NCBI GenBank assembly: GCA_027603945.1
Contig: JADIIU010000180.1
Coordinates: forward strand, 1 to 20,830
DNA: 20,830 nucleotides
Direction: 5' to 3'
Source: Terramyces sp. JEL0728
Taxonomy: Eukaryota > Chytridiomycota > Chytridiomycetes > Rhizophydiales > Terramycetaceae
The notes beneath the pieces are model-generated. The model made no database searches, had not been told where the DNA came from, and worked only from the letters and a program-made list of their open reading frames with translations. Positions 704-19,917 of this stretch are shown piece after piece; position 1 is the stretch's first letter; every line of letters starts with the position of its first letter. Both the position numbers and the translations under genes were made by a program.

Positions 704-1662
704 ATGACGTCAAAGAAAAAGTTACCTCCAATGTCCTTTGACCCTACAGATGCTACCCTGGGTGCCAAAATCTACCTTGATATTAACCAAGGATGGCTGG
801 TATGTTACAGCTAACGCAGGTTGCCAAACTCATAGAGTTTACAGTAATTCCTTACGGGTACTTTTGTCTCCGGCCAAATAAGGTTGCCTTTATCCTGTTC
901 CTTATTTCGATGGTCAACATTCCGCACAATATTAGCGCCTACGTTGCAAACTACTTGACTGATATAGACCTGGTTGACGCGCAACAACTTCATTTCCTCT
1001 ACAATCCTCTTCCCTGGTGGATAGTTAATTCTATTTGCGTGGCTGCAATAAGATCTTTAGAAATGTACTGCAACTACCTTATTGTAACTGCTGTTGCAGA
1101 TAAAGGTCACTTGTTACGAATCCGTATCATCACTGTTTTCTGTATGGTGATTACCTTGTAAGCGGATTTGACTTTAGAGCTAGTAGGATTTATGACGGAG
1201 CCACTGGTATGTGCTGTGGACGCTATGGCTTGCTGTTTGCAGCCATAGCTGGCGTTTTGCAAAGTGTGTTCTGTTTGGTGTCAATTTTTCAGGCCATCTC
1301 CAAGATTGCAAGCAGCGAATCTTTGGCTCACGGTGAAGTTCACCAACTGTTGTTCAAGAGCGCTTTGCGTTTGATTTTTATCCAATGTATTGATTTCATT
1401 GTCATTGGTAACATTTGCTAACTTAGTGGGAATCCTTGTCGAACCTTTGAACAGTATTTACTTTGCAGTTTGGTGGGATATGCTTGCAGGAACCTTTGAC
1501 AACTGTAGAGCTTTGCTCATGTTCATTGACTTGTTGATGACAAAGTTGGAAACCGCCAGGTCAAGATCAACGAAAAACACCGCGATGGGAACAGCGGCAA
1601 AAAGTGAAACTAAGAGCATAACTCTCGGTAAGAGTGATCACAAGAGTAGTACTATGTTATAA
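704..1662 (+). CDS. Multi-pass membrane protein, function unknown (4 exons)
   Basis: Exons 704-799, 820-1157, 1178-1407 and 1427-1662 join to 299 codons. The introns are 20, 20 and 19 nt; the first and third carry CTAAC just before the acceptor. The start at 704 gives MTSKKKLPPMSF; an in-frame ATG at 695 is also possible, and a TGA at 674 closes the frame upstream. The protein has a short soluble N-terminus and then about six or seven hydrophobic segments, roughly residues 35-60, 60-80, 95-120, 125-145, 155-180, 200-220 and 225-260. A hydrophilic Ser/Thr/Lys-rich tail follows. There is a conserved-looking loop SRIYDGATG after the third exon junction. This topology suits a transporter or 7TM-type protein, but I see no diagnostic motif and make no functional claim. 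Exon joins are well supported because each restores the hydrophobic pattern. Confidence 0.75.
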
Positions 1663-1692
1663 AACTGGTTTCTTTTAATTTTATTGAATTAC

Positions 1693-1712
1693 ACATTGCC
1701 GGACATTGCCGG
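1693..1712. repeat. 10-bp tandem direct repeat in intergenic spacer
   Basis: The motif ACATTGCCGG occurs twice head to tail, immediately followed by a C-A-poly-T run. It lies between the membrane-protein stop and the phosphatase start. It could belong to the 3' end of the first gene or the promoter of the next. Confidence 0.6.
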
Positions 1713-1748
1713 CATTTTTTTCATTTGCCCAAAAAAGAAAAAAACAAA

Positions 1749-2235
1749 ATGCCATCCGTTCTCTTCGTTTGCCTTGGTATTCACCCGCTAATAACTAGGA
1801 AATATTTGCCGCAGCCCAATGGCAGAAGCTGTATTTACCGCATATGCAAAGAAACTAAATTTGAACTTTACGATTGACAGTTGTGGAACAGCGGGATATC
1901 ACGTTGGAGAGAACCCAGATTCCCGATCAGTTGCTGAATGTAAGCGGAACGGCGTGCCTGTCAATCACAAAGCCAGACAATTAACTAAATCTGACTTTAC
2001 CAATTTCGACTACATTCTAGTAATGGACCACGACAACAAGGAGGATGTGCAGAGCGTTAAACCACAAAATTGTACCGCCAAAATATGTCTATTTGGAGAA
2101 TTTGATCCTGAAAATGATTTGGTAATCAAGGATCCATATTATGGAGGAAGAGATGGGTTTGAAAAGAACTTTAGGCAGGTGACTAGATGCTCTGAGGGCT
2201 TCATCAAGTATCTACAGGACAACAAGGAAATATAA
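1749..2235 (+). CDS. Low-molecular-weight protein tyrosine phosphatase
   Basis: Two exons, 1749-1776 and 1799-2235, encode 154 residues, the usual length of this family. The 22-nt intron splits the catalytic loop. Only after splicing does the active site read VCLGNICRSPMAEAVF, the C-X5-R-S signature in which Cys forms the phospho-enzyme and Arg binds phosphate. The general-acid motif near the C-terminus is present as DPYYGG. These enzymes are soluble cytosolic phosphatases acting on phosphotyrosine and small phosphate esters. Without the intron the frame has no Met before residue 16 of the true protein, so a start at the internal Met (1819) would lose the nucleophile. The gene is co-directional with its neighbours and there is 86 nt to the previous stop. 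Confidence 0.95.
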
Positions 2236-2239
2236 TAAA

Positions 2240-2353
2240 ATGAACATAAATGAGAGGCACAGTATTGCCTGTAGGATCTTGCGTGATGCTGGAGATATGA
2301 GACTCGTCATAGATTCAGGACCTGAAGCTATAGAAGAGTGTACACAGTTGTGA
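2240..2353 (+). CDS. Possible 37-residue small ORF directly after the phosphatase
   Basis: An ATG lies 4 nt after the phosphatase stop and opens a 37-codon frame, MNINERHSIACRILRDAG and onward, ending before the RPC7 promoter. The composition looks protein-like (balanced charge, no low complexity), but the length is too small to be sure and I recognise no family. It could be a chance frame in the 3' UTR, a small gene of its own, or one exon of a gene whose other exon I did not find. The following 44 nt contain a poly-T tract and TAG just before the RPC7 start. Confidence 0.3.
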   Translation: MNINERHSIACRILRDAGDMRLVIDSGPEAIEECTQL

Positions 2354-2397
2354 AATTACTTTAAATTCTGCAACTTGAATTTTTTTTCTAGTGAAAA

Positions 2398-3058
2398 ATG
2401 AGCAGAGGTCGAGGAGGGTTTAGAGGAGGAAAAGGAAGAGGAAACAACAACGGACTAGATATACCCGATGATTTGAAACTGAAATTAAATTTTATCGAAG
2501 CTCCAACTTACCCAGTACTCAATGTTTTATAGTAGGAAATGGAAATTCCACCATTCAGACAATTAGATCAAAATGAAGAGCATATACTAGAGATTGAACA
2601 GCGCATCAACAAATTCATGAAAGAGAGTCCATTTTACCTTGAGCCGGATCCACCAGCGCCAGGTTATTTTTCATTAATGTAGAAATTGAACGATATTCCG
2701 ATAGATATATAGCAGTGAGTAAAAAGCCTCCGTTCAGAACACAAATGCAGTCGCTAAACATAAGTAGTCTTGTAATAACATAGATATGGAATTCTTTCCA
2801 GAAGAACTGCACGTTGCATTTACAGGAACAAACAAGCGACGGAGGTCTGTTAAATACGCAGACATTGATTTATCAAAACTCGATGATATTGAAAAGGATG
2901 ACAAGAAGGAGCAAGATAATGATAACCAGGAAGCAGATGAGGACGAAGATGAACCAGACGAGTTTGAAGATGAAGAGGAAGATGATAATGACTATGTGAT
3001 TGATCACTATGATGATGAAATGGATGCGATAGGGAACGAGGATGATGGTGATTACTAG
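2398..3058 (+). CDS. RPC31: RNA polymerase III subunit RPC7 (Rpc31/POLR3G family)
   Basis: Four exons, 2398-2514, 2536-2662, 2683-2763 and 2784-3058, give 199 residues; the introns are 21, 20 and 20 nt. The order of parts is typical of the Pol III-specific subunit of the RPC3-RPC6-RPC7 subcomplex, which helps initiation at tRNA and 5S genes in the nucleus. There is an RG-rich start (MSRGRGGFRGGKGRG), then a central conserved block with PPFRQLDQNEE, FYLEPD and EIERYSDRY. Next comes FFPEELHVAF, and the protein ends in a long Asp/Glu tail with a DY terminus. The EIERYSDRY block matches DIERYSKRY of the human protein from memory, and it appears only after the 20-nt intron at 2663-2682 is removed. 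The 21-nt intron is a multiple of three but contains two in-frame TAG codons. Confidence 0.92.
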
Positions 3059-3257
3059 TTTTGTAATAATATAATCTTGCGTTTACAGACGTGTTTCATT
3101 GTTATTGGACTGCCGCCAACTTTTGTTTATTTGAGTTGATTGCAACAGTGTAAGGATTGGAAGTTTAAACAACTGCGCATTATTAACTATCAAAATTTAA
3201 CGCGTTAATATGCTGCAGTCGCTATTCAACAAAATAAAGGGTAAATCAAAGGCAACA

Positions 3258-4778
3258 ATGAGCGCATTCGAAAAGTTACCCGAGGATTTGTTTGAATTCA
3301 GGATATTATACTACTTGGATGGAATTGATATTTGGAAACTGTCGCGACAATGCAAATCTCTGCAGTCAAGGTTAAAACCATTGTGCGACTTTATCGAATA
3401 TTCAGGATTGTATCCGCTACAAGTCTGGCCAACTCTATATTTGGCTGGAGGATCCATTGACGAAAAACTACTAAAGAAACTGACAGTCTCTAGCCTTATA
3501 TTCGAAAATATAATAATTGATGCAGATACTTACTACACCGTTCATACTCAGTTGCCCAAGTGCCACAAACTTACTCTCGCTATCAATAGCTATTACCAGA
3601 CATTCCTGCATCCATCAAATATTATGGGTACGACTGTGGACAAAATTTCCAGTCTTTGTTTGAAAGGAATGGACAGAGGCAACATTGGATTTGCAACAGA
3701 TTTGAGTAGATTAAAAGAAATGCGTCTGCAGGAATTGGAATTTTCTGTTTGTCGGGATTTTATCGTATCATTAGCAACAATAATACCATCATTATCATTA
3801 TCAAAATTGGTACTCGCACACTGCGCAGTTGGCGACACTCAGTTAAAATTATTGATGGAATCCGTTACATGTACTAAAATTTCTTATCTGGAATGCACAA
3901 ACCTTAATATTACCAAAGTAGGTGCAGCGTCGTTAGCCGAATTGCTACCGCACACCAATTTGATTAGCTTGGTCGTACGAAATTGTCCAGTACGTAAATT
4001 AGGTGCAAACGTATTTGCCGAGACAATTCCTTATAGTCGTCTGGAATATTTGCATTTGGAAAACAACGAGTTCATTCAAAACGATATTTTCAATCTAATT
4101 CAATGCTTGCCAGACACTAAATTAAAAGAATTTTGGTGCGATGCCTACACTTCCGTCAAAGAACAAGAGTTGTTGGCACGGTTACTGGCTCAAACGCATA
4201 TTAAACATGTCAGTATATGCATTGAACCAAAATATTTGGTTGGTTTACTTGGCACGGCAAAGTTAACTAAATTAAAAGTAATTGGCTCAAATGGAGACTA
4301 TATATGCGAAGCACTTGCGGAATGTATAGACAGACTACCGCGGATGCTGGATCTTGGCTTTACAGAAATATCTATTCATGGACTCCAAGCACTACTGTCG
4401 CATTTGAAACCATCAAACCTGAAAGAATTGGATTTAACAGGAAATACTTTCAAAAGAGATGGATTAATCATCTTGAAGGATAAGCTGCATCTGCTTGGAC
4501 TGAAGCAGATATCCCTGGGAAACACAAACTTTGTTACTTTTGAACAGTTGGATGATATCAGTCTAGATATGGTTGCAGAGTTTTTACAGCACCTACCATT
4601 GGCTGAAACAATTATAAAATTCAAGCAGATTAATTTCAGGGATATTACGGTAGATAAATATAATAGAAAATTTGTCGAATATAAAGGAAACGCTTTTTTG
4701 TTTTCTGTCGATCAGCATATTAATTGCATAGAAAGAAAAGGAAGGTCGGACGGGAAATGCAAGTATTTTGATGAATAA
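3258..4778 (+). CDS. F-box-like leucine-rich repeat protein
   Basis: A single-exon gene of 506 codons from the ATG at 3258; an in-frame ATG at 3210 would add 16 residues. I prefer 3258 because the resulting start, MSAFEKLPEDLFEFRILYYL, aligns with the start of the paralogue at 7380 (MSLLEELPFDVLEFQIFYYL). Residues 5-45 resemble an F-box: LP, a hydrophobic helix, then a DIWKLS-type segment. From about 90 to 440 there are degenerate ribonuclease-inhibitor-type LRRs, such as LKELDLTGNTFKRDGLIIL. This architecture usually makes a substrate receptor for SCF ubiquitin ligases. That role is inference, since the F-box is divergent. It is intron-free, unlike most neighbours, which suits a recently amplified family. 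Confidence 0.8.
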   Translation: MSAFEKLPEDLFEFRILYYLDGIDIWKLSRQCKSLQSRLKPLCDFIEYSGLYPLQVWPTLYLAGGSIDEKLLKKLTVSSLIFENIIIDADTYYTVHTQLPKCHKLTLAINSYYQTFLHPSNIMGTTVDKISSLCLKGMDRGNIGFATDLSRLKEMRLQELEFSVCRDFIVSLATIIPSLSLSKLVLAHCAVGDTQLKLLMESVTCTKISYLECTNLNITKVGAASLAELLPHTNLISLVVRNCPVRKLGANVFAETIPYSRLEYLHLENNEFIQNDIFNLIQCLPDTKLKEFWCDAYTSVKEQELLARLLAQTHIKHVSICIEPKYLVGLLGTAKLTKLKVIGSNGDYICEALAECIDRLPRMLDLGFTEISIHGLQALLSHLKPSNLKELDLTGNTFKRDGLIILKDKLHLLGLKQISLGNTNFVTFEQLDDISLDMVAEFLQHLPLAETIIKFKQINFRDITVDKYNRKFVEYKGNAFLFSVDQHINCIERKGRSDGKCKYFDE

Positions 4779-4863
4779 ATAATCTCATTTCTTTGATTTA
4801 TTTCACGATACTACTGGATTCAAAGTGATAAATACGACAGCTATTGGAAATACAAATTACTAT

Positions 4864-7045
4864 TTATTGCATATTAAAAAAGGATTGATGGACATTTCCA
4901 AATGTCAATTTTAATGTCACATCACAATCAGATCCGATTGTAGGGTAGATTTGTGAAGGAACAAAGTCCAAATTAGTGAATTCTCCATCCAATTTGGTTC
5001 CGTTTAGTGTAAAGTAGAATGTCAAAATTGGTTGAGTTCCTTCAAATGCTACTCTGTACCCAAGTCCGATAACGTCACCTTCGTTTACGGCAAACCCACA
5101 CGGAGCGCCAAAATCAACATCGTTCATAAAGACAGCTCCATCGTCACTGTGGTAGGCGATTGATTGTATGTCCCACCCGGGCAATCTAAATGGAGGGTAT
5201 GGACAGCCAGCGAAACCAATAGCCAGTGTTCCATCACGGTTAGATTTCTTTAGGATCTCTACTTGATAGTAGCATTCATCTACAGGCGCTTGAGATGAAT
5301 CCATCACATGGGGAAGGAGCGGGACGTTAGATTGAATAGAGCAGTCTTGTTTCGTGTTTATAGTTACATACTGTACTCCAGAAACAGGGTCTAATGGACC
5401 GATATCTACTACTGGCTGATGTCCCAAGAATGGGAAATCAGGAAAGTATCTAGGAGCCATCATGCTCGTTTTGATTTCAGCATATTGCATGGATGGCGGG
5501 AGATTTGCAGTAGCGACTGCAGCATCAACTGCAGCCTTTGAGCCTGGTGGGTACCTGTCAATAAATGCATTTGCTCTCATTAGCTCATCGTGAGTCGCAT
5601 TGTGAATATTGTGGAACGGAGGCAGAACATCTTCTAATTGTTGATCTCCACTTCTTTCATTGTTAAAGACCGTTGCTGAACTAAAGGCTTGTTGCTGACT
5701 GAATTGTTGAGGATATTGCTGGTTGTATGTTGGTGCAGTAGATTGATAGTTGGCTGGTTTCTGGTGTCTACCTCTGCAACTTTTAGAAATGCAATAAATA
5801 AATACACCAATAACGCCAACTCCAATGCATCCAATAATAACGTACAACCATGGGAAAGATGAGGACGATGAACAAGAATCAATTTCAACCGACACGCCAG
5901 AGAAATTGAAGCTGCCAGACTGAAACAAGACATCACCATAAGTAGTCACATTCCAATTATTGAATTGGAGAGTTGATTGTTGGTTTACTTGTATTACTAT
6001 TGTTGAATAGTCTCCAACCGTTGTGGTGTACAATAAGAAAGTACCTTTGAATTGGGGATTAGCTCCTGCCAAACCAGAAGTGGAAATATTACTGTTGAAA
6101 TTAAGATTGGCACTTTGGATATTGAATAATCCACTGTAGACTACTAAATTTGCAATTGAAAACAAGCTTCCATTAATCTGTGCAGAATTGATGTTTAGAT
6201 TAAGTGAAGAAATATTGAGCTTTGTGTTTCCAATCAAACTAGTAACTAATGAAGACGAATTAGCGTCAACATTGATGCTCTGAGCAAGTGAAGTGTTTAA
6301 ACTGGTAGCAGTGGAAACCAGGCTTCCAAAATCAACAGATTTACCATAAAATGTGGCAGAGAATAACGATACTGTCATGGTTGAATTCCCAACTAAATTT
6401 ACATTATCTGAATTGTTGAATGGTGTAAATGCATTCTGAGTGACTTGTGCTGGGTCAGTGACAATAGAGAAACCCTCTGTGTCTGCGTTGTTGGTGGCAA
6501 ATGAGACGCAATCGCTGGAAACTCTATTTACACTATTTGTACTTTGATAATTGTTGTAATAATAAGAATTTCTTGAATTCTGCAGCAAATACCACATGTA
6601 AAAGTTGTTGTAGCCATAATTGGAGTAATAGCCTCCAGTTGGGTACCCTCTAACTGATCCGTACCCTACATTTGAAGCACTGGTGCTGGATTGTCCAACT
6701 GAGCGTGTGGAAGACGATGTGCTGGACGTACCCCCAAAAGTTCTCCCATTCGAGCTTGTGCCTCCAGAGCTTGTTGTACCTCCAGAGCTTGTACCTCCAG
6801 AGCTTGTACCTCCAGAGCTTGTTGTACCTCCACCTTTTGTACCTCCAGATGAACCACTAGAACCTCCAGAAGAACCAGAAGAACCACTAGAGCCTCCAGA
6901 ACTTCCACCAGAAGAACCACCAGAACTGCCTCCAGAAGAACCACCACCTCTACCGCCTTTATTAGCATTATGAATTACCTCCACCGCCTCCTTTAGGAAT
7001 CGATAGCACTTGAAGAATAAATATAAACAGTAATAGAATTTGCAT
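4864..7045 (-). CDS. Single-pass membrane protein with Gly/Ser stalk and cytosolic SPRY domain (Ssh4/Ear1-like)
   Basis: Two exons, 7045-6979 and 6956-4864, flank a 22-nt intron with a GCTAATAAAG end and encode 719 residues. The start at 7045 gives a clean signal peptide, MQILLLFIFILQVLSIPK. Residues 19-117 are Gly/Ser/Thr repeats. Residues 118-385 are an Asn/Ser-rich region with many N-X-S/T sites and repeating hydrophobic strands. One transmembrane helix follows at about 390-415 (LYVIIGCIGVGVIGVFIYCI), then a Gln/Pro-rich juxtamembrane region. The SPRY domain spans about 585-715, with GTLAIGFA, LPGWDIQSIAYHSDDG and PTIGSDCDV. Fungal Ssh4/Ear1 combine a membrane anchor with SPRY and recruit Rsp5 to endosomal cargo. 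I see no strict PPxY motif here, and the large ectodomain is unlike yeast Ssh4, so an adhesin or receptor role is possible. Confidence 0.85.
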
Positions 7046-7379
7046 TGCTGTAGTTTGGAAAGCTTTATTTTGCCAAAATTTAAACCTTTCGCGCCACCAG
7101 CGGCTGTAACACTTTTAATTGACCTCATAGCCAAATCGTACAGCAAACCTAAAGAACATCTGTACTGATTTCCAGATTGGAAAGACCATTCGCTTTGATC
7201 ACAATGTACCGGTGAATATCAACGTAGAAGGTCAGATTGTAATCATGGTGCCGGTAACCTAGTCAGATCAATCAATGATTTTGGTGGTTAGGGGTAGAAA
7301 CCTGGTAGCGAACCAGTGATTCGCAAGATGTGTCTACCAATATCACCAGCACCCATAAGGTATTTTTTTCTTTTTAAAA
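7046..7379. other. Divergent intergenic region with ambiguous coding-like segments
   Basis: This 334-nt gap separates two divergent start codons and should hold both promoters. It also contains unusually protein-like frames on both strands. On the minus strand, 7356-7302 joined to 7258-7149 (43-nt GT-AG interval) gives 54 codons starting MGAGDIGRHILRITGSLPG. On the plus strand, 7133-7240 is open with NICTDFQIGKTIRFDHN and could be extended by 24-25-nt intron-like gaps, but it has no ATG. The two are antisense to each other, so at most one is real. I recognise neither and leave both uncalled. Confidence 0.3.
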
Positions 7380-8999
7380 ATGTCACTCTTGGAGGAATTG
7401 CCATTCGATGTATTGGAATTCCAAATATTTTATTACTTGAACGGACTAGATATCTGGGCATTATGCCAATTAAACAAATCACTTCAACAGCGACTGCATC
7501 TGTTTCTCCAGGTACTGTGCAATACAAAATTTCACACATCAATGATTTGGCCAAATTTGGATTTGGATGGGTTTACTAGAATCGATGATTTCAAGCAACT
7601 GAATTTGCAGAAATGGAAGCTAAAATTCCTTGCAATTTCAATAGACGGAAACAACTTTTTGCGTTTGAATAATCACTTGCCAAAAACTACTTTATTAACG
7701 CTGAATGTTACAAGATTTTCAAACTTTGTTACCCGCAAGAATCGATTAAATTGTTCTGTAGAGAATGTGACTTGCATCGATATCGCACAAATGGGAAATC
7801 ACCAAAATATTGATTTTGGAATTTTCAAAGAAATGAATTTGAATGAAATCAGACTTGGAGAATGTCAGCGGCCAGGGTTTGAAAAGTTCATGGCTGTTCT
7901 TCCTTCCCTGCATATCACTAAACTATCCCTTTCAATGTCTCTTACCACTGTCCAGCAGGTACAAACATTGTGTCAAGAGATTTGGAAGCTGCCAATCAAT
8001 TTCCTGGCTTTGTGTATGATGACACTTACCAATGCTTCAGCTACATATTTGGCAGAAATGCTGCCGAAATCAAACATCACTGAACTGTTGATCATGTATT
8101 CTGAAATTGGAAAACCAGGTTTAGATACAATTGCACGAGTACTACCAGACACAAAATTAAAAGCACTCCGATTTGAAAATGCTAATCCTGAGGGAGATTT
8201 ATACTTTGAACTATTCAAAATACTACCAAAAACGCAAATTACAAAATTATGGTGCGACAACATCTCTGATGATGAAGTGCAAGAAATAATTGTTGAAAAT
8301 ATCGGGAAAACGCAAATCACCAATGCTCATTTATATATCGAAAATGCATTTTTGGAAAAATTCTTGAAGGCAAAGAAACTGGAAAAATTCAAGAACTCAT
8401 GCGTCTTTGGGGATGTAGGGTGTGAAATTTTAGCAAATAATTACAAGCATTTACCTGTAGAATTGGATGCGACTGATTGTTCAATAACAAGCTACGGATT
8501 AAAACTACTTTTAGAAGGGATTTGCAAAAGTGATGTAAAGTCGCTTTTATTAAGTGGAAATGACTTTGGAAATGATGGGTTTAACTATTTGAAACTATAC
8601 TTGAAAAATACTCTGCTCGAACGATTAGTTTTCGGAAATTCTTGCCAGGGCTATATTGTAAGAAAAAACACCTTGGATGATTTCTTTGATGGGCTTGAAA
8701 GCAATCTTAAATCGATTCAAATCAACAATGTCTTTCAAAACTATCCCGAATATTACAAACGAGTTTTGGTGGAATACTATATAGATCCAGGCACAATGTC
8801 CATCTTTGAATATAAAAAATTAACACGTGGAATATCTCCAGGCTATGCTGCTTGGGTAAATGAAGCTAATGCTGAATTTGATGAAGACGAATTGTTTGAT
8901 TATTCTGATAGTGATTGGGAAGATGACAGTGATCCAGCCCACGAAGATTTGCAAGAATCTGATTATATCCACGAAGAGTCGCAAGATGAAAGTGAATAA
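7380..8999 (+). CDS. F-box-like leucine-rich repeat protein with acidic tail (paralogue of 3258-4778)
   Basis: A single-exon gene of 539 codons. The N-terminus MSLLEELPFDVLEFQIFYYL and the following LDIWALCQLNKSLQQRL match the first LRR gene segment for segment. The central LRR-like repeats also correspond; for example LPKSNITELLIM and LPDTKLKALRFEN echo LPHTNLISLVVRN and LPDTKLKEFWCDA. Residues from about 490 form a strongly acidic tail with DYSDSDWEDDSD that the paralogue lacks. Function is probably protein recognition, perhaps as an SCF adaptor; this is inferred only from architecture. The two copies lie in the same orientation on either side of the SPRY gene, so they are an interrupted tandem pair, clearly diverged rather than recent duplicates. 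Confidence 0.8.
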   Translation: MSLLEELPFDVLEFQIFYYLNGLDIWALCQLNKSLQQRLHLFLQVLCNTKFHTSMIWPNLDLDGFTRIDDFKQLNLQKWKLKFLAISIDGNNFLRLNNHLPKTTLLTLNVTRFSNFVTRKNRLNCSVENVTCIDIAQMGNHQNIDFGIFKEMNLNEIRLGECQRPGFEKFMAVLPSLHITKLSLSMSLTTVQQVQTLCQEIWKLPINFLALCMMTLTNASATYLAEMLPKSNITELLIMYSEIGKPGLDTIARVLPDTKLKALRFENANPEGDLYFELFKILPKTQITKLWCDNISDDEVQEIIVENIGKTQITNAHLYIENAFLEKFLKAKKLEKFKNSCVFGDVGCEILANNYKHLPVELDATDCSITSYGLKLLLEGICKSDVKSLLLSGNDFGNDGFNYLKLYLKNTLLERLVFGNSCQGYIVRKNTLDDFFDGLESNLKSIQINNVFQNYPEYYKRVLVEYYIDPGTMSIFEYKKLTRGISPGYAAWVNEANAEFDEDELFDYSDSDWEDDSDPAHEDLQESDYIHEESQDESE

Positions 9000-9009
9000 A
9001 TAATACATT

Positions 9010-9217
9010 ATGGGCTTGAGACAATTGTGTAGTCTTGTTTCATTGCGAAAGATAAGGAGGAAATCAATTCTGCATGCATTCCTCAAGTTACAATCACTAT
9101 TTAAATCAAGTCGGTGGTGATTGCTTCACTACAAGTACAGAACCCCAGATCAAGTGGAACTATGAGCTCATTTCCCCAAGGCAGTGGAATACTGTGGCTG
9201 TTCATGACGAATTATAA
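9010..9217 (+). CDS. Small protein, 61 residues, probable mitochondrial targeting (2 exons, unidentified)
   Basis: Exons 9010-9113 and 9136-9217 are joined across a 22-nt GT-AG intron to give 61 codons. Without splicing the frame stops at codon 37. The first 35 residues are Arg/Lys/Leu/Ser-rich without acidic residues (MGLRQLCSLVSLRKIRRKSI), as in mitochondrial presequences. The spliced second half contains IKWNYELISPRQWNTVAV, which looks like folded protein and not chance sequence. I do not recognise the family; a small mitochondrial assembly or ribosomal factor would fit. It lies 10 nt after the LRR stop and 65 nt before the next start. The intron has no textbook branch motif, which lowers certainty. 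Confidence 0.45.
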
Positions 9218-9282
9218 ATTGGGGCGAAGCACCACCACAGTGTTTATAAATAAGCTACGGACATTAGCACGAATATCATATT

Positions 9283-10182
9283 ATGAAGTGCATTATCACC
9301 GAAACAATCAACTCTTTAATCCACAAAGAGCCAAAGGAAAAGTCTTTTGTTGTTATCCGCCGCCATTCAACCATTAAATTTAGCAATAAAGAATCAGCAG
9401 CAGACTCTGCAGTTAGCATTGAAAATCGTCTTCCTGTAGAAAAGGCGGTCCAGGCTGAACAAGAATACATGTCGTCCAAAGCTTATCGTCCAATTGACTG
9501 TGATTTCCTGCCATACAACAATCAGGCAGATCAACCTCTCCAAATGGAAACCGAATTCAAACCTCTAAATAATCTGCGCAACTCGCATAGCACTTTGGCT
9601 GAACGTGAATTCGTACCGTACACATCCAATCCATACAAGACTAGAAAATCCGATTCGTTCCGTCCCAATCCATACAAAGCTCAACCGCAAGAGCCTCAAA
9701 CAAAAGAGTACACTACAAATCCGTACAAGACTCAAACAAGCAATCTCGAACAAATCTATACTTCAAGCCCTTTCGAAACCAAAGTTCCAATTAAGATTGG
9801 ATTCGATACCCAGAAATATGACACGTTCAAACACCCGCAGTACGTCCAACCGCCAATTATCCAGCAAAACGTTTACAAAATTCAAGTTCCTAGCGCTCCT
9901 CAAGCCCAAGAATATCCCAAACCTCATTATTATGACGGAGCACAAGAAAGATTGGGCCATCGCTTACAAAATGATCGTTTTGATTGGGCTAAACCAGCAG
10001 CTGCGCTTGAAGAACCTCTGAACCGTTATGCAAATATTGCCGAACAGGTCGACGATCAGGATTACGATGATATTCCATATATCGATGACTTGTACAGTGA
10101 AATCAACGTTACTTTGTCCTTGCCAAGAAAAGCAAATATGCACAGATTCCCAACCAGAAAAGTATTCCGCAATGTATATTAA
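9283..10182 (+). CDS. Disordered protein with NPYK repeats, function unknown
   Basis: A single-exon gene of 299 codons starting MKCIITETINSLIHKEP. Most of it is Gln/Pro/Asn/Tyr-rich and probably disordered. Residues about 110-170 carry four spaced repeats of the type TSNPYKT, RPNPYKA, TTNPYKT and TSSPFET. A preceding set of related motifs reads DFLPYNN, EFKPLNN and EFVPYTS. The C-terminus has an acidic stretch (DDQDYDDIPYIDD), then a basic end. Repeated short Tyr/Pro motifs suggest a scaffold or an adaptor-binding protein, but I know no matching family. It converges on the ankyrin gene, with only 30 nt between the stops. Confidence 0.65.
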   Translation: MKCIITETINSLIHKEPKEKSFVVIRRHSTIKFSNKESAADSAVSIENRLPVEKAVQAEQEYMSSKAYRPIDCDFLPYNNQADQPLQMETEFKPLNNLRNSHSTLAEREFVPYTSNPYKTRKSDSFRPNPYKAQPQEPQTKEYTTNPYKTQTSNLEQIYTSSPFETKVPIKIGFDTQKYDTFKHPQYVQPPIIQQNVYKIQVPSAPQAQEYPKPHYYDGAQERLGHRLQNDRFDWAKPAAALEEPLNRYANIAEQVDDQDYDDIPYIDDLYSEINVTLSLPRKANMHRFPTRKVFRNVY

Positions 10183-10212
10183 TAATTATTACTTTTTTTA
10201 TTTACTAGGTTT

Positions 10213-12156: not shown

Positions 12157-12185
12157 TTCAGTAATCAAAAGATTTTTTTAACCTT

Positions 12186-12549
12186 TTATTCTCTCCTGTC
12201 ATTGTGGCTTGTAGAACGTGTGACGAATCCCCCTAATGATTGGGCATCAAAATAGATTTCCTGCCAGGACTTGAGAACGTTGAATGCACGCAGGGATGTC
12301 AAGAACGTGTGTCTGTCGAATAATTGTCTTGGGTTTCCATCAAATTCAATCCAACTTACTGTTGCGGTGCCTTTCTTTAATTAGCCAAATTAGGCTGAGC
12401 TCCGTCATCCGCATCCAATAAAGTGGACGAAAAACTGCAGATAATAATGAAATCCTCTGGAGAATTTTCAGGCTACTCGTTGGTGAACTGGAATTAGGCT
12501 GTAATTAAGAGTCGACTAAACGACACATAACGTAGATCGAAATAGCCAT
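12186..12549 (-). CDS. Unidentified 99-residue protein (4 exons, one GC-AG intron)
   Basis: The last exon, 12374-12186, is clearly coding: GTATVSWIEFDGNPRQLFDR, then a helix-like part and a basic tail. Upstream exons 12549-12517, 12498-12477 and 12456-12401 complete 100 codons in frame. The introns are 18, 20 and 26 nt. The 26-nt intron begins GC and ends GGCTAATTAAAG, matching the branch-acceptor pattern of other introns here; no GT donor is available there. An alternative treats the first two introns as one of 44 nt (12473-12516), giving RLPENSPEDF in place of RLPNSSSPTKDF. A one-base frameshift in place of the GC-AG intron cannot be ruled out. I do not recognise the family. It sits 14 nt from the TCP11 stop and 29 nt from the ankyrin start, all on one strand. 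Confidence 0.5.
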
Positions 12550-12563
12550 GCAGGGTTCAATGT

Positions 12564-15277
12564 TTATTGATAAAATAGTTTTTTAAAAGCCAAAGAATCT
12601 TCTCCATTTTTTATATCTTCCAGAATGGCAGAATACAGCTTTCCATACACGGCCTTATTTAACACTGCTATAGTTTGGAGCTTCTTGATCAGCTCTTCGA
12701 TTTCCTTCTCTACGCAGACCAAGGCATGCTTATTTAGTAGATCCTTGTTGATCGGTTCATTGTTTAGCCCATTTTGAACATGGATTCCGACCCGTTTTTG
12801 AATCAATTCGTATAATTTCGATTCTGGCGCTAGAGTTTTTTCTGTCATTGAATTGATGGCTGTTATTTCTTCAGGGGACATTGCTTTGCCTCTAATTTTA
12901 CCAGCCAAGTGAGCCATTTGCAGAGTAATGTGAGACATTGTCGATTCGGAATCGTTTAGTAGTACCCATAAACTAGTTTTGGCTTCAATCAAGTCTGAAT
13001 TTGTACATTTTGGACCAGCAGCCTGCTTAAACACGACAAGAATGGACGATAGGATCGTGATATCTTGCCAGCTATTGAAATGAGCAATCAATCTGCCAAC
13101 ATCCATTTGCAATGTTTCAGGGACAATACTCTCTGAACTGAATTTCGCCGCCTTTAGTGTAATGTTAACAAGCGCTTCAGGAAACAGATCATAATTAGGA
13201 TTAGGAGAAGTAGCAAGATTAGACTTGTATATGGTCCATACTTCTTCAAGCCATGTTCTTGTATTATCAACCGTAATTTGTCCAGATTCAAATTGATTCT
13301 TGAACCACTTCCATTCAAATGTCACAGAATGTTCCAATATATGCGGTCTTAATCTCGACAACTGATGGTTTGCGTAATCCTGGTATTAGCAATATTTACA
13401 AGTTTCATAAGTTCCAAGATTTCAAAACAGAGCTGCAACGTGTGACACACATCACCCGCTTGACAAGCTGCTACCATTGCATCAACTTTAGGATCTCTAA
13501 TCGGAGCACAGTTTGTTTTCATAATATCAGCGATATAAGTAATCAACGGGCCGGGGTTCATTATTCCGTGTTCAATTTGTTGTGCAATTAAATGGGTATC
13601 GATATTGTTCATCAAGTCATCCTTGATTTCCAAACCATTTGGTAATAATTCAATCAAGATAGCCCGGACTTCGGCAAGTAATAGCGGCACTCTGTAAAAC
13701 TGACCTTCGGCAATTTCTTGTTCCAATTCTTGCCAGTAAGCATCTTGTTTTGGAGATGCGTCCTCGTCAGATTCGACGCCAGGCTTAAATTGTAGATCAG
13801 CATCAAAAATGATATCATGGCGAAGCTGTGCGTTACCAAGGATTTCATCCATATCCAATTCTCGCAAAGTAAATCTGGTAATTGGTGGTAGTAAATTGAG
13901 CAGTTCCAAGAAAGTCACATCATCACCTTCCTTTAGTACCACATCTGGTAAGGATTTTGTCCTCCTAATAGATGCAGTTAGTGATTCTGCTTTAACTGGC
14001 GAATCCTTAAACAAAAAGTTGGATGATTTCGCAGAAGCATTCGCAGAAGTGTAAGCAGAATGAAATTCCCTTTGATTTGCATTTGGGAATTCTTCACTCT
14101 TTTCTGAAGATGGGAAATCGTGCTGGTGTTCTTCGTCTAGTTCGTATTCATCTTCCTCAAGAGTAACATTAAGCCCCATTGGAGTAAGAGTAGCCAAATC
14201 TCTTTCAGTCAGATTGAAATCTTGTTTCAGATAGTCTGTAAAGTTTTCTGAAAGAGCTCTACGCAATTCCATGAACTTGTGCATCTTTTGAATCAGCATA
14301 ATTCTTTTCGCATGTTCTACCTTTGCACCAAACTGTTCGCGTATTTTTCGCAGAATCATTTGACGGTTTAATTGCGCTGAAGCTGCATTGTACTCTACTT
14401 TGGCATGCAATCGCATCTTTTCTAGTCTCTGTCTAGAATCGTGGATCAGCATCTTGTATTTTATCGTTTGTGCATCTCGATATAGCTTCATTTTGCGGGC
14501 ATTCAGGATTCTAGTCCTTCTAGTTGCTGCAGATTCCATCCGTTCTGCTAAGCTTGAGCGTAGTTCTTCTGCAGGTGGTCTAACTAAATGAGTTTTGATT
14601 TTTGGGAACGATTTAAGTCTCTTTAATTCGTGGTTGACAAGTGTTTTTGTCTCTATCTCTATTGGCTTAGTAATTGTCGCAGTGCTAGTCCCAGTTTCTT
14701 GTCTTGGTACCTGCTTTTGAACGGCAATCGTTTCTGTTGGTATTCCAACGGTTTTTGGAGGTGGGATATCATGATTCAATACGCATCTGGGGCTCTTTTG
14801 TAAATCCAATTGGTCCATTGGAGTAGTTTTCATACCATTAGCACTCTGTGGTGGTAAATCCGTTTCTATAATTTTTTTGGGATGTTTTTCGGGCGATAAT
14901 AAATCAATGAAAAATGATATCGATCCCTTCTTTCTCATTATTACGTTCCCTAGAATGGCTGAAGCGCTTGGTGAACTCGGTGCTTTCAACGGACTTGATG
15001 TCGCAGTGCTAGTAGTAGCGGTTGCTGGTTGTGCAGGATAATTCGACCTGGCGGTCATTGGACTTTTTACATGGTGCTGCTTTGCTGGATGCACCGAAGT
15101 ATCAATCGATAAACTGATTGATCCAGTATTTTGACTTGACGTTGTTTTGAAATTGACTAAATTGCGCTCTTGTGGGTTGGCGTCAATCATTTCCGACTGA
15201 GTTTCTTCTGGACTTTGGTTATTGACTTCAGACGAATTCATAACATACGGAGAGTTGGAAGTTGTGTCTGTATTCAT
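12564..15277 (-). CDS. T-complex 11 / Sok1 family protein
   Basis: Exons 15277-13400 and 13379-12564 give 897 residues across a 20-nt intron with GCTAATACCAG at its end. Splicing converts a broken junction into KLDYANHQLSRLRPHILEHS, the signature segment of the TCP11 domain. Residues 1-220 are Ser/Thr/Pro-rich and probably disordered. Residues about 230-360 are a basic, helical region, likely coiled coil. The TCP11 domain runs from about 470 to the end and includes YWQELEQEIAEGQFYRVPLL and a helix rich in conserved Leu. In yeast Sok1 acts in the cAMP/protein kinase A pathway; in animals TCP11 acts in sperm. The exact role here is inferred from family membership only. Confidence 0.9.
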
Positions 15278-15420
15278 GAAATATATTCAACGTGGATAAG
15301 AATTTTCAGTGTGCTCTCCACCTCAACGTTGGCTGGAACAATGCTGAAAGTTCAGGGAAATTGCTCTACCAACCAATATCTAATTTCCAAGAATTGATTT
15401 ATATTTTATTATTGTAACAA

Positions 15421-15681
15421 TTAGATCTCGCTGGGTTTCTTATTCTCGGGCATGTCGGTTATCTCCCCATTCATAATCTTTTGTCTGATTTTAATCCATC
15501 GTATTTTGCAATCCTTGTATTCGTCAAATTGTTGTTTGCAATGAGCTGAATACTCGTCACTGCCATTAATTAAAATTTACCGATTATAGTTGTATTTGTA
15601 CATGCATTTCTTACTGGCGACTGCGTAATCGCCACAGTAAGACTGGAGAGGTTGAATTAGACTGGATTCTGCTTGTCCCAT
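15421..15681 (-). CDS. Twin CX9C protein, COX23-like
   Basis: Exons 15681-15581 and 15559-15421 with a 21-nt intron encode 79 residues. The protein has two CX9C motifs, CGDYAVASKKC and CKQQFDEYKDC, the hallmark of proteins imported into the mitochondrial intermembrane space and oxidised by Mia40. The sequence around the second motif (QFDEYKDCKIRWI) resembles Cox23 (YFDxYKECKKxW), a factor for cytochrome c oxidase assembly and copper handling. Cmc-type proteins or CHCHD7 relatives are alternatives. The 21-nt intron is a multiple of three but includes an in-frame TAA. The start lacks any presequence, as expected for this import route. Confidence 0.85.
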
Positions 15682-15834
15682 TTATTCAGAATAAAAAAAC
15701 TGGTGCGGCTTTTTCAGTCGAGATGTAATTAACCTGCAAAAGTGCGAGTCAAGATTGGATATCTGTCGGGCTTAGCACAGTGCATTCTCTGTATCTATCT
15801 GCACTGCTTAAATATTCGCCGCGTTCTGTTAAAA
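15682..15834. promoter_or_regulatory. Divergent intergenic region between COX23-like gene and globin relic
   Basis: 153 nt separate the COX23-like ATG on the minus strand from the globin ATG on the plus strand. It must hold the COX23 promoter. I see a 7-base A run immediately upstream of the COX23 start and no coding-like frame. No specific transcription-factor site can be claimed. Confidence 0.4.
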
Positions 15835-16108
15835 ATGAGTTCATTATACGACCAACTCGGCAGAGAACCGGCTATTGATGCAGCATTTCCTAACCGCAGC
15901 GTTCAAGGCTTTACCAATTAATGTTGGCCGATCCTCTCATACCAATATTATAAAGTCATGCTTAAAAATTTTTCACCAAAAAAAAATAATCTGAATGTAG
16001 ATTTTCGTACTGTGCATACACTATCAAATCCTACGCTAACCGCATGTTATTTCATCCACTGATTTTATAGTCAACTGGATAGTAAAGATGTGCAACATCA
16101 ACTTCTAA
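15835..16108 (+). pseudogene. Decayed truncated-haemoglobin gene
   Basis: The start MSSLYDQLGREPAIDA, then after a 17-nt GC-AG intron (15883-15899, containing CCTAACCGCAG) RSRLYQLMLADPLIPIL, is the A/B-helix region of group 1 truncated haemoglobins. This frame stops at 15951-15953. One base out of frame, the reading continues and includes DFRTVHTLSNPTLT, which matches the RxVH segment carrying the proximal haem histidine. A 25-nt intron-like gap (16046-16070) then leads to FNWIV, matching the following helix. The middle part (helix E, Gly-Gly hinge) is missing or unrecognisable and the end terminates early at 16106-16108. I read this as a relic with at least one frameshift. A sequencing error cannot repair the missing middle. 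Confidence 0.5.
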
Positions 16109-16270
16109 CTACCTTGTCAGCAACTTCTTTTATGTTGGTGCTTGCATCAATATTAGCATTGTTGAAAGATACTTTGCGGATAGGAAAATTGTCTGGAGGA
16201 TTAGATACATTATTGTCTTGTTTTCTACAATTTCAATAGCCAAGCAAATAGTATTATCACTGTAAAGCAT
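16098..16270 (-). CDS. Possible small spliced gene directly downstream of DDB1
   Basis: An ATG 7 nt after the DDB1 stop opens a frame MLYSDNTICLAIEIVENK. A 32-nt intron (16141-16172, with GCTAATAT before AAG) joins it to an exon ending NIKEVADKVVRS; the total is 46 residues. The alternative is a 44-nt intron (16217-16260) giving a longer, more hydrophilic second exon with NPPDNFPIRKVSFNNANID. Both keep the same C-terminus. Frames on the opposite strand are open too, so coding status is uncertain. I recognise no family. It converges with the globin relic and overlaps its end by about 10 nt. Confidence 0.3.
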
Positions 16271-16277
16271 TTATTTG

Positions 16278-19200
16278 CTAATGGATCCTAGAAAGATCTT
16301 GCACAATTTTAATCAATTCTTCAACTGGCTCGCCAATCTCGTTGGCAACTTGTTGCCTCATGTCGGTATCCAGATCAATGAAAGCTTCAATCAAATCTCC
16401 ATCGATAAATCCTTCCTTTTTGACACACAACTTTTGACTCTCAAATTCTCTAAATCGATCGTGAGAAAGATTGCCAATGGTAGGCAATTGCTTGAGACTA
16501 TTTTCCAGCTTTTCTAAAAGTTCAACATGCTCCGATAAAGTGCAAATCACTCCAAGCGCACCGTTAATCGTAGCGTAAAGGAGAATTGGATTTGCAATGA
16601 ACGGCTGGTCGGGATTGTTTACTACAATTGAGCCTCGTTAGCAATTTCAATACCTAGTCGGAATCGGTTTATCTGCTGTCCTAAATGATATCTTGCAACA
16701 ACATGCAATCTTTTGAAATCTTGAATGTCGCTGTTCTTTTTTACACAAATAATGTTGCACTTGTCATCGCTGCCAATATAAAAGTCATCTGATATTGCTT
16801 GAACATTAATCATCCAGTTGGTATCGTAATCACGGGCACGTTCGACCAACTTTTTTTCAATTTCATCGTACACTAGACAACTAAACGATTTCATCAGATC
16901 ACCAACAATGATAAAATCACCGTACGATGATAATGTAACAGCAAGAATATGTCCGTGATGAGTAGCGATATGCACCAAACCATCCTGCCATTCATACAGG
17001 CACACTGTCGAATTTACGGCAACAGCCAATCTATCCCTGACGGTTGTAATTGAATAGCAAGCTCCTGCGATATCAACGGAATGGACCAGCTCCAGTACTC
17101 CGTCTGATACTCTAAAAACCAAAAGTCTTCCTTGCTCAGGTTCTTCTTGGTCTGGTAAGGCAATGCACGTCCCAAATATAATGAATTCTTCGCCATCCAA
17201 AGTCCATGAATAAAGAGCACTCCCAAGTTCATGTTCATTCAATTCATAGGAATCCAATACTTCAAAAGTTGCGGAATCCAGCTGTTTCAGGTATCCCACA
17301 TATATAGACTCCCCTTCACCACCGACCCTGAATATTTGCGTCATGATTAAAATGGTTGAGCTTTGTTCGTGCACTGCTATTCTGCGCACAGTTTCACCAA
17401 TAGGCACTGTCTTTACATGCAGTTTTTGTACCTTTTCAATAATGCCAATTTTCAGCGAATCATCTGTAGCAACAGCCAGCCAATCTTCAAACTGTACGAC
17501 GCTCTTTACATGTCGCAGATTGACATTGCTGTATACAAGTTTGGAGTGTTGACTGTAGATAATTGTTGGTCTATCAGAGCAGCAGAACACATATCCATCA
17601 AAGGAATGCAGGGAAATCGGCCCTTTGCCAAGCGAAATCATTTTCTTTTTGAAATCGTTGGTTGTAAAAGTGTACAAAACTCCCGTGCCTTCCGCAACCA
17701 CCAAGTAATCTACATCTTCCAAAGTAGCTAACAGTATTGACTTTGGAATGTTTGACAGCCGTTCTGAACGCGTCTGACCTAAACTAGGCAGTTTGAGCAC
17801 TCTGACAGTCGAATCCCACAAGCCAACAGCAACTTGATTGTCTTTTATATGTAGACAAGAGATGTTTGTATTTAATCTAGTATAGCTACAGTTAAATAAT
17901 TGCTACTTTTTTTCAATCAACTTTCCATTGCTGATCCCAAAGTGCTGCAACTCAGATCCTTGAGCAATCACAATATCAGTCTCATTAAAGCTGGCAATGG
18001 TAATTTCCTGGCTGGACCTGTATTCATCGTACAACTGGAATTCGTTTGTTGTGGTTTTTATACCTCTTTTTGTTATTTGAATAAAATATTCACCAATATT
18101 TCCACATTGAATGGTTGGCAAATCGAATTCGAAATCTCCTTCGTCAAACTCTTGCAATTCATCCCGTAAAGCCAAGATTCTAGTCTCACAGATAAAACTA
18201 GCAACAAGATAATTTCCCTTCAAGGAAAACAGATTCAACACCTGTAAATCAATTGAGCTTAGTTCTTCAATCCCAATTCCATTTCGAATGACACGCAGCG
18301 ATCCGCTATGTAGATATCCGCTGCAAGTAATCAATTGCGACTGCTCATCCAAATCTGTCAATACAAAGTCCGAGATTGGACCTAAATTTGGGTAGACGAT
18401 CTGCTTTTCTGAATTTAACTGAATCAGTTGAGAATCTGAGAAAGAGCTTCCAATGTACACATAGTCTTCGGCAATCCAGGACAAAGAAGAAATTCCAATA
18501 GTATTCATAATTTCGTTACATTTCAATAATTGCAGGTTCAATAAATGCAGGTTGCCCTGGTAATCTCCAAACAAAATGCTGTCATTCATTATTGTAAAAG
18601 CCTTCATAACTGTCGGTCTGAAGATGGTCTTTTGGTGATTTAATTGAATAGAGTGCTGGCCTTTATAAATTGAAATTTACCGACAATAACAAGGCCGTGA
18701 ACGGTAGAGACCAGCATATTGGCTTGATCTTCAACTTGGAAATCTTTGAGTTTGTCCAAGTCATCATTCACATCATAAATAACTACACATCGCTCTTCCT
18801 TGATATTTTGATACAGCACACACAGTTTTTCATCTTTGTTATTCGCGGATTACCATGGATAGTCATATAAATGACATCCAGCTTATCCAATCTCTTATTT
18901 ACACAGTCTCCTAGCTGATTGCTGTTAATTGGTAATATTTTGAAAATCCCTTGGTAAATGTGAACTCCAATAAACTTTGCTGTAACCAACAGAAAACTAT
19001 TATCTGATAACTTTTGTCCTCTGTCTTTAATTGATCCGCTGGAGACGGTAACAACAGTATTATCTTTCCATTGCAGCAACGACAGCTGTTGTTTTTGAGT
19101 CAAAACTACAAGAGTGTCAGGCTGATTAGGCGACTATTTTAGAATCAACTACTTTGAGAATATCCATCGCAGTTACTCTACCATTGATTGGTAAATTCAT

Positions 19201-19390
19201 TACAAGCTTCAAAGTATCCGTGAACAGGTGAATTTCAATTCTAGTGATTTTGCTACATAAATCTGGGAATTACCTACAGATCAGTAACCAATTACTTGAC
19301 TATAAGGTTCAAGTGGTCCGGGTGAGTGAAATTGCAAGTTAGGGAATCACTAACTGCATCCGGTGGATGTGCTTGCTTAATGTAAAACAT
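16278..19390 (-). CDS. DDB1: DNA damage-binding protein 1 (DDB1), 7 exons
   Basis: Exons 19390-19296, 19252-19153, 19121-18854, 18833-18681, 18660-17907, 17885-16654 and 16633-16278 join to 985 codons with every phase consistent. The introns are 43, 31, 20, 20, 21 and 20 nt. The human protein is about 1140 residues, so this one is shorter, mainly in loops. Matches run the full length: the start with HPDHLNLIVNKITRIEI, then GSLRVIRNGIGIEELSSIDL, CSDRPTIIYS, KLVYSNVNL, KLHVKTVPIGE, NSTVCLYEW and FIIVGDLMKS, ending GFIDGDLIEAF with a final LSRIH. DDB1 is the three-propeller adaptor of CUL4 ubiquitin ligases, linking CUL4 to DCAF substrate receptors in DNA repair and replication control. The 31-nt intron could also be read as 28 nt, because GTAGTT gives two in-frame donors. 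Start chosen by alignment to the conserved N-terminus. Confidence 0.95.
19253..19295 (-). other. Doubled (head-to-tail) intron in DDB1
   Basis: The first DDB1 intron is 43 nt and consists of two complete intron-like units without an exon between them: 19295-19274 (22 nt) and 19273-19253 (21 nt). Both begin GTAATT and both end TGTAG. Removing both gives LNLIVNKITRIEI, which fits DDB1 spacing exactly; removing only one leaves an immediate TAA. Confidence 0.75.
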
Positions 19391-19437
19391 TGAGATTCGT
19401 TTAGAAAATAATGAAAAATTTATTATATACTGAAAGG

Positions 19438-19917
19438 CTATTTGATACAGAGGATTTCATACTCTGAAACCTCTACTTCTAGCCCGTTATAACCGATGAA
19501 TCCAGCAGGCAGACCGAACCCGGCTTTCCCAGGAATCCATCTTCCATCCCTTTGAGCACGGATAATGAATATTTCATTTTGCGGATGCTTTTCATACCCA
19601 GCACTTACTGGATTAAAGTCAAATTTGCCTTGGTTAACACAAGATACCTGGCTTAAGTCTGCCTACAACAGGGATCCACTTTAGTTTTTCCATATCCCCG
19701 CATAAAATCTCATAATCATTTGTAAATATCTCTTTTTGTCCCCATCCGAATGAACATCCATTTCCAGAAGTTTTACCAGGATGGTCTCCGCCGTTATAAA
19801 AAGTTCTGGCAAGATACACTTTATTACCATGTGAATACCTGGTTTTCCTTCGTGAGTTCCTCCGACGATTGCATTTTTTGGTATATTTGTTCCTCCTTGT
19901 TTCCACACAAGATTCAT
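19438..19917 (-). CDS. DM9-domain (DUF3421) lectin-like protein, 3 exons
   Basis: Exons 19917-19839, 19818-19648 and 19628-19438 encode 146 residues; the introns are 20 and 19 nt. Two DM9 repeats fill the protein. Repeat one has IPKNAIVGG, VYLARTFYNGGDHPGK and NDYEILCG; repeat two has IFIIRAQRDGRWIPGKAGFG and SEYEILCIK. DM9 proteins form small beta-prism-like dimers, and some bind mannose and act in pathogen recognition; natterin-type toxins carry related modules, but no pore-forming part is present here. There is no signal peptide, so it is probably cytosolic. Both exon joins fall inside the repeat cores and restore the YVAR-like and PGK motifs. It lies 47 nt upstream of the DDB1 start on the same strand. 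Confidence 0.88.

Follow-up and report, generated by a model that had tools for sequence, protein, structure and literature searches.

Genes and introns of the window

The window analyzed here, the 20,830-bp contig C180 of the 15,016,339-base assembly (231 contigs) of Terramyces sp. JEL0728 (a strain name that is presumably a culture collection code), contains genes interrupted by introns of about 20 nucleotides (nt). Terramyces and Boothiomyces, the genus used for comparison below, are classified in the Terramycetaceae (Chytridiomycota, Rhizophydiales) and are true fungi. The genes recognized in the window are those of a low-molecular-weight (LMW) phosphatase, a SPRY-domain protein, an ankyrin protein, TCP11, DDB1, Rpc31, and a DM9-repeat protein, and Rfam and ARAGORN scans of the window gave no match. 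Eighteen introns were reproduced in the window, 17 of 19 to 22 nt and one of 43 nt, and they very probably represent ordinary U2-type introns, reduced to a nearly constant 19 to 22 nt throughout the nuclear genome of this strain. They are listed below.

800-819, + strand: 20-nt intron of the gene at 704-1662, which has no Pfam match; removal unites two open frames
1158-1177, + strand: 20-nt intron of the gene at 704-1662, called by the gene finder; a 26-nt alternative, 1158-1183, is also in frame
1408-1426, + strand: 19-nt intron of the gene at 704-1662, called by the gene finder
1777-1798, + strand: 22-nt intron of the LMW phosphatase gene at 1749-2235, interrupting the catalytic CLGNICRSPMAEA loop
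2515-2535, + strand: 21-nt intron of the Rpc31/RPC7 gene at 2398-3058, called by the gene finder
2663-2682, + strand: 20-nt intron of the Rpc31 gene, called by the gene finder
2764-2783, + strand: 20-nt intron of the Rpc31 gene; a 17-nt reading, 2767-2783, is also in frame
6957-6978, - strand: 22-nt intron near the N terminus of the SPRY-domain gene at 4864-7045, called by the gene finder, without a homology anchor
13380-13399, - strand: 20-nt intron of the TCP11 gene at 12564-15277; the Pfam Tcp11 profile runs from 158 to 159 across it
15560-15580, - strand: 21-nt intron of the gene for a small protein at 15421-15681, called in a looser gene-finder run only
16634-16653, - strand: 20-nt intron of the DDB1 gene at 16278-19390; the same join is made in the public Terramyces protein P0001, and Boothiomyces P0002 is collinear
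17886-17906, - strand: 21-nt intron of the DDB1 gene, from the frame join, protein alignment, and gene finder
18661-18680, - strand: 20-nt intron of the DDB1 gene; same join in P0001; called by the gene finder
18834-18853, - strand: 20-nt intron of the DDB1 gene, from protein alignment and the gene finder
19134-19152, - strand: 19-nt intron of the DDB1 gene; P0001 shares the acceptor but has a different donor, and residues are missing from P0002 at this place
19253-19295, - strand: 43 nt removed from the DDB1 gene; the flanking protein is collinear with P0002
19629-19647, - strand: 19-nt intron of the DM9-repeat gene at 19438-19917, from the frame join and gene finder
19819-19838, - strand: 20-nt intron of the DM9-repeat gene, called by the gene finder

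The gene finder was blind to intron length, combining the codon usage of open frames 250 codons long or longer with donor and acceptor matrices and a flat length prior of 13 to 120 nt; intron penalties of -10, -12, and -14 were tried, and the figures quoted are those of the -12 run. It recovered 14 of the 18 window introns at 18 to 22 nt, plus the 43-nt one. Two were mis-sized, the intron at 1777 as 49 nt and that at 16634 as 32 nt, which protein homology sets at 22 nt (phosphatase, 1777-1798) and 20 nt (DDB1, 16634-16653), and four long calls (110, 88, 90, and 101 nt) all bridge neighboring genes. The initial annotation of this DNA had claimed 23 introns. Beyond the 18 reproduced here, no gene was called at three of its gene positions (9010-9217, 12186-12549, and 15835-16108), and its 31-nt intron was not reproduced. 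Its 26-nt intron may correspond to 1158-1183, for which the nested in-frame 20-nt alternative, 1158-1177, is preferred. The length range that it gave, 17 to 22 nt, narrows to 19 to 22 nt. A length of 17 nt found no support, as 2767-2783 is also readable as 2764-2783 with a difference of one codon.

The small protein at 15421-15681 is putatively assigned to the twin-CX9C family by its motif; it has no Pfam match. In addition, long uninterrupted frames of 522 and 539 amino acids occupy 3210-4778 and 7380-8999, both leucine-rich-looking by eye and without a Pfam match.

Proteins restored by intron removal

When the 43-, 19-, 20-, 20-, 21-, and 20-nt segments are taken out of the DDB1 gene, a single open frame of 989 codons results. 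Its product aligns to DDB1 chains of the Protein Data Bank as two long blocks, residues 3 to 643 and 651 to 989. It is 100% identical over 94% of its length to the public Terramyces record P0001, and a record from Boothiomyces sp. JEL0838 (P0002) matches it with 79% identity. P0001 makes four of the six DDB1 joins exactly as here, and the protein is collinear with P0002 at four of the six. Where the 19-nt intron is removed, P0002 is short of several residues, and at the 18661 join it has seven extra residues (GKILLTE), which read like a retained, stop-free 21-nt intron. In the upstream part of P0001 (window 16278-19917), the DM9 gene is fused on, and the initial exons of DDB1 are missing together with the 43-nt intron. 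These departures are read as an annotation error, and gene sets of such genomes may contain more errors like this fused, exon-lacking record. The raw fact is already in the databases, where public gene models remove some of these introns.

The phosphatase matches the Pfam LMWPc profile with 162.6 bits (profile positions 1 to 143) when spliced, versus 147.7 bits (6 to 143) for the unspliced frame, and reading from the ATG at 1819 gives 125.2 bits (14 to 143). After splicing, the Rpc31 protein matches PF11705 with 38.5 bits, and the DM9-repeat protein matches DM9 with 96.7 bits.

Genes for splicing proteins elsewhere in the assembly extend this result, the splice sites of SF1, Prp18, and U1-C having been placed by hand. 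The Slu7 domain, found in two pieces of 139.2 and 104.2 bits before splicing, becomes one piece of 289.2 bits; the U2AF large domain goes from two pieces (251.7 and 27.9 bits) to 334 bits, over its cutoff of 310.3; and the Prp18 (109.1 and 55.5 to 178.5 bits) and U1-C (52.4 to 71.2 bits) domains gain likewise. Residues 6 to 1985 of Prp8 align to human Prp8 (3jcr) in one stretch that runs over five introns. In SF1, a 73-nt gene-finder call conceals a 19-nt intron that is backed by the SF1 domain. The Prp18 intron is a 20-nt GC..AG intron across which the Prp18 domain is continuous (L033, C7 at ~207.06 kb). In the U1-C gene (L031, C76 at ~63.3 kb), two introns, one of 21 nt and the other of 22 nt, are separated by an exon of 10 nt. 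So small an exon argues for recognition of the intron rather than of the exon.

Counting only introns within homology-recognized domains or alignments gives an anchored set of 28 introns in 11 genes: DDB1 (6), LMW-PTP (1), TCP11 (1), Rpc31 (3), DM9 (2), Prp8 (5), U2AF65 (3), Slu7 (3), SF1 (1), Prp18 (1), and U1-C (2). The gene at 704-1662 adds none of its three introns to this tally, and the introns of the SPRY and twin-CX9C genes and the N-terminal introns of U2AF65 and Prp18 likewise fall outside it, all of these being unanchored. Removal of the 28 introns restores a continuous conserved protein in all 11 genes. Six of them are 19 nt, twelve are 20 nt, six are 21 nt, three are 22 nt, and one is 43 nt, so that 27 of the 28 lie between 19 and 22 nt.

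The best matches in a protein search with U2AF65 were, in descending score, Boothiomyces macroporosus (93% identity), Globomyces pollinis-pini (65%), a metagenome protein (54%), and Kappamyces sp. JEL0680 (56%). At its C terminus, the Kappamyces model (P0124) reads VRIGLLTW and stops at the position of the last U2AF65 intron of Terramyces, as if the model had run on into a corresponding intron, which may be slightly over 20 nt long.

Length distribution across the assembly

Two samples were used to follow intron length beyond the window. The blind sample (220,830 bases) comprises the window and 20 regions of other contigs, picked by place only and irrespective of introns, and the full sample comprises 33 sequences from 28 contigs (258,885 bases, or ~1.7% of the 15.0-Mb assembly). 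One sequence that duplicates part of the window was excluded from all counts except the stricter-frame spectrum below. In the frame-join spectrum, which counts segments of each length whose removal unites two long open frames, GT..AG segments of the blind sample number 24, 50, 31, and 15 at 19, 20, 21, and 22 nt, with 4 to 9 at each length from 13 to 18 nt and a slowly rising background above the peak. The control pairs GT..TG, GA..AG, GG..AG, GT..AC, and CT..AC show no peak at 19 to 22 nt in the same bases, with counts of 2 to 16 each. A stricter requirement on the frames gives 13, 30, and 16 segments at 19, 20, and 21 nt (227,565 bases in 23 sequences, including the duplicate). Requiring GTA at the start and TRAY near the end gives 39, 48, and 24 at these lengths and 0 to 5 at the other lengths from 12 to 45 nt (242,061 bases).

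The gene finder reproduces this distribution. From the 21 blind sequences, it returned 260 introns, including 50, 84, 35, and 15 at 19, 20, 21, and 22 nt (184 in total), with 1 call at 13 to 17 nt, 24 at 23 to 49 nt, and 51 at 50 to 120 nt. From the full sample, it called 110 genes with 310 introns, including 59, 100, 42, and 18 at 19, 20, 21, and 22 nt, none at 18 nt, 4 at 13 to 17 nt, 27 at 23 to 49 nt, and 60 at 50 to 120 nt. Short introns are present in 20 of the 21 blind sequences, with none in L014. Penalties of -10 and -14 leave the shape of the distribution the same (424 and 253 introns). A first run with too weak an intron penalty returned 1,214 introns and was discarded; the peak at 19 to 21 nt stood out in it nonetheless. 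The median of the peak is 20 nt, as is the mode in both the blind and the full samples. The initial annotation had proposed a mode near 20 nt for a fungus-like nuclear genome and had named a genome-wide mode above 40 nt as the opposite outcome, and the mode of 20 nt found in the sampled part of the assembly, that of a true fungus, agrees with its proposal. Scaled to the assembly, the 184 blind introns correspond to roughly 12,500 introns.

Intron anatomy

The introns share one layout, in which a donor near GTAAT is followed by a U-rich stretch, then by a YTAAY branch motif, and finally by AG. Among the 219 gene-finder introns of 19 to 22 nt in the full sample, 192 have the branch A at position 14 or 15, and 197 have a tail of 5 or 6 nt after it. 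The four combinations 14+5, 15+5, 14+6, and 15+6 (52, 51, 45, and 32 introns) make up 180 of the 219, and the choices on the two sides show no dependence (P = 0.30). The distribution over 19, 20, and 21 nt with its mode at 20 nt follows from these two options per side, used nearly independently. The branch motif is TTAAT, CTAAT, TTAAC, or CTAAC in 145 of the 219 introns, and the commonest donor hexamer is GTAATT (36 of 219). In 120 clean introns, preselected for GT and AG, the third base is A in 88%. Intron bases 5 to 9, within the stretch between donor and branch, are 38 to 56% T, and the few bases that follow the branch leave no space for a polypyrimidine tract. Other fungal introns have the same YTAAY branch and GT..AG logic. 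The initial annotation had put the branch motif 10 to 13 nt from the donor and 3 to 6 nt from the acceptor, which is approximately right for the edges of the motif; the branch A itself is the base at 14 or 15, with a tail of 5 to 6 nt.

The branch picker slightly favored tails of 5 to 6 nt, and the check was repeated without the motif filter. In 105 segments of 19 to 21 nt, TAAY with its A 5 to 6 nt from the end occurs 59 times, and TAAY at other tails of 4 to 13 nt occurs 14 times. Matches at tails of 15 to 17 nt come from the donor GTAAY itself.

Abutting introns

The 43-nt intron of the initial annotation is removed in DDB1, and it divides into two abutting segments, 19274-19295 (22 nt) and 19253-19273 (21 nt), with the sequences GTAATTGGTTACTGATCTGTAG and GTAATTCCCAGATTTATGTAG, each of which satisfies the local rules for a complete intron. 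A scan for abutting pairs, whose branch rule the DDB1 pair falls just outside, detected one more at L019 3842-3884, again of 22 and 21 nt, which unites frames of 100 and 232 codons and was passed over by the gene finder in favor of a 64-nt call. From their sequences, these two sites of abutting tiny introns with a zero-length exon are possible stepwise-spliced twins. Excision in one step and stepwise excision yield the same mRNA and are thus indistinguishable from sequence.

Splicing machinery

The initial annotation had suggested a search for reduced spliceosome components. Seven of the 10 splicing components searched for were found in the assembly, namely, Prp8, U2AF65, SF1, U1-C, Slu7, Prp18, and the U2 small nuclear RNA (snRNA), including six of the seven proteins, and there is no clear sign of a reduced spliceosome in the sample. 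The other three (RED_N, the U1 snRNA, and a convincing U6) were not found in searches that had no positive controls, the named control genomes being prokaryotic, and these negatives carry little weight. The U2 snRNA scores 140.2 bits, and its branch-pairing GUAGUA is unchanged. Human spliceosomes need the protein RED when the distance from donor to branch is short. RED_N was not found in the assembly by a search that had no positive control, and its absence is not claimed. Two near-identical candidates for U6 (C199:4823-4928 and C111:34941-35045) score 27 bits, below the family cutoff, and have the ACAGAGA box but no AGC triad; the pair, which was rejected, is probably a repeat.

Comparison with known systems

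Tiny introns are also known from mikrocytids, heterotrich ciliates, and the nucleomorph of chlorarachniophytes. The Terramyces introns resemble these in operation, show the sequence features that characterize the U2 type, and are a separate fungal case of this phenomenon with a spacing of their own. To Stentor and the chlorarachniophyte nucleomorph, which the initial annotation had named as precedents, the mikrocytids (16 to 17 nt) should be added (PMC10245619). Stentor coeruleus (15 to 16 nt) likewise is free living and has genome-wide uniform tiny introns with a fixed branch A and a tail of 5 nt (PMC9505925). Its branch A is the 10th or 11th base within a weak motif, whereas in Terramyces it is the 14th or 15th within a clear YTAAY (PMC9505925). 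The published Stentor table lists no Slu7 or Prp18 homolog (PMC9505925), whereas Terramyces has both. Near-minimal introns therefore do not require the loss of Slu7 and Prp18. The mikrocytids also have numerous, uniform, near-minimal nuclear introns; they are rhizarian parasites in which 17 to 19 spliceosomal proteins have been identified, and M. mackini has 224 introns (PMC10245619). In contrast, Terramyces is a fungus, with ~12,500 introns when the blind sample is scaled up, and searches for seven splicing proteins located six. Nucleomorph introns of 18 to 21 nt, as cited in PMC10245619, have nearly the same range; the nucleomorph is the relic nucleus of an endosymbiont, whereas the Terramyces genome is a free-standing fungal one.

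In the titles and abstracts listed, mostly from non-subscription literature, there was no report of chytrid introns this short, and the word "intron" is absent from the main text of the Paramicrosporidium genome paper. Microsporidian introns are short, from about 23 nt upward. They are few, with 37 junctions in E. cuniculi (PMC3629993). A survey of 644 fungal genomes terms the introns of Cryptococcus neoformans (mean, 63 bp) relatively short (PMC8476143).

Alternative explanations

Several observations weigh against shrunken U2-type introns as the explanation and are considered here with the alternatives that they would favor. We infer removal by the spliceosome from sequence alone, the lengths, motifs, spacing, and protein continuity being what is observed directly. 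In addition, U1 snRNA was not found in the assembly by a search with no positive control (the named control genomes were prokaryotic), and a convincing U6 was not found, its core pattern with up to 2 mismatches being absent from the assembly. The introns are also shorter than the human spliceosome tolerates: in human extracts, a test intron was no longer spliced once its donor-to-branch distance had been reduced to 46 nt, and ~52 nt was estimated to be necessary to span the human B complex (PMC6692369). The distance in Terramyces is 13 to 14 nt. These points would suit segments that are bypassed in translation, cut and joined by a non-spliceosomal route, or kept as protein insertions. Such an explanation is very improbable, in that the donor, branch, and acceptor motifs are of the U2 type, the branch matches an intact U2 snRNA, and core splicing proteins are encoded. 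Moreover, 215 of the 219 introns shift the frame or contain an in-frame stop, a count that comes from a gene finder favoring such introns. Owing to this bias, no weight is given to the presence of an in-frame stop in 38 of the 42 introns of 21 nt. As for the motifs, 211 background segments of 30 to 45 nt hold TAAY at a tail of 5 to 6 nt 30 times, which are taken to be true acceptors joined to wrong donors, and about one-quarter of the excess GTA..AG segments, by a rough estimate, are without TRAY at the expected place.

It is unlikely, with some real chance of being correct, that the short introns are only one class and that a substantial number of longer introns was missed. The 310 introns called by the gene finder include 91 with lengths other than 18 to 22 nt, introns above 150 nt lie outside the reach of the methods used, and the splice matrices were trained on introns of 18 to 22 nt, so that too few longer introns would be called if their signals differ. 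Of the eight off-peak calls examined individually, one in SF1 and the rest in the window, four bridge genes, three are short introns given a wrong size, and one is the 43-nt case; a small class of longer introns may exist among the others. Spectra extended to 60, 70, or 150 nt show no second peak; under-calling is limited since no further peak appears in the motif-free spectra. None of the anchored introns in the eleven genes exceeds 43 nt. That the short lengths are an artefact of the assembly or of choosing splice sites that mend the frame is scarcely credible and is already contradicted. The sites of the initial annotation were chosen by eye, those of three splicing genes were set by hand, and a choice can be arbitrary, as between 17 and 20 nt at 2764 or 20 and 26 nt at 1158. 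However, automatic length-blind calls give the same mode across 28 contigs, the control dinucleotides are peakless, and independent homologs are continuous through most of the joins.

Proposed splicing of the short introns

With ordinary U2-type introns of 19 to 22 nt as the preferred explanation, splicing would likely proceed by intron definition on a very small RNA, starting with recognition of the 5' splice site. The branch site would pair with the unchanged GUAGUA of U2, a lariat loop of ~14 to 15 nt would form, and the AG directly after the branch would be used with no downstream polypyrimidine tract. Since such an RNA could not plausibly hold U1 and U2 in the layout mapped on human introns, the donor would pass from U1 to U6 before full U2 pairing, or the extended helices of the human B complex type would be shortened. 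More broadly, and as a tentative proposal on which we lean toward doubt, the Terramycetaceae may independently have driven nearly all of their nuclear introns to 14 to 15 plus 5 to 6 nt with an unstripped set of splicing proteins, perhaps without RED, with U1 leaving early or the extended helices never fully formed and with abutting introns spliced successively.

Fungi are the strongest ground for spliceosome genetics and structures. The donor-to-branch distance of 13 to 14 nt scales to more than 10,000 introns of a fungus, by which the smallest RNA that a spliceosome can hold would become directly testable beside relatives. If the proposal is true, the spliceosome of the Terramycetaceae would assemble with an early exit of U1 or without the full extended helices between U6 and the donor and between U2 and the branch.

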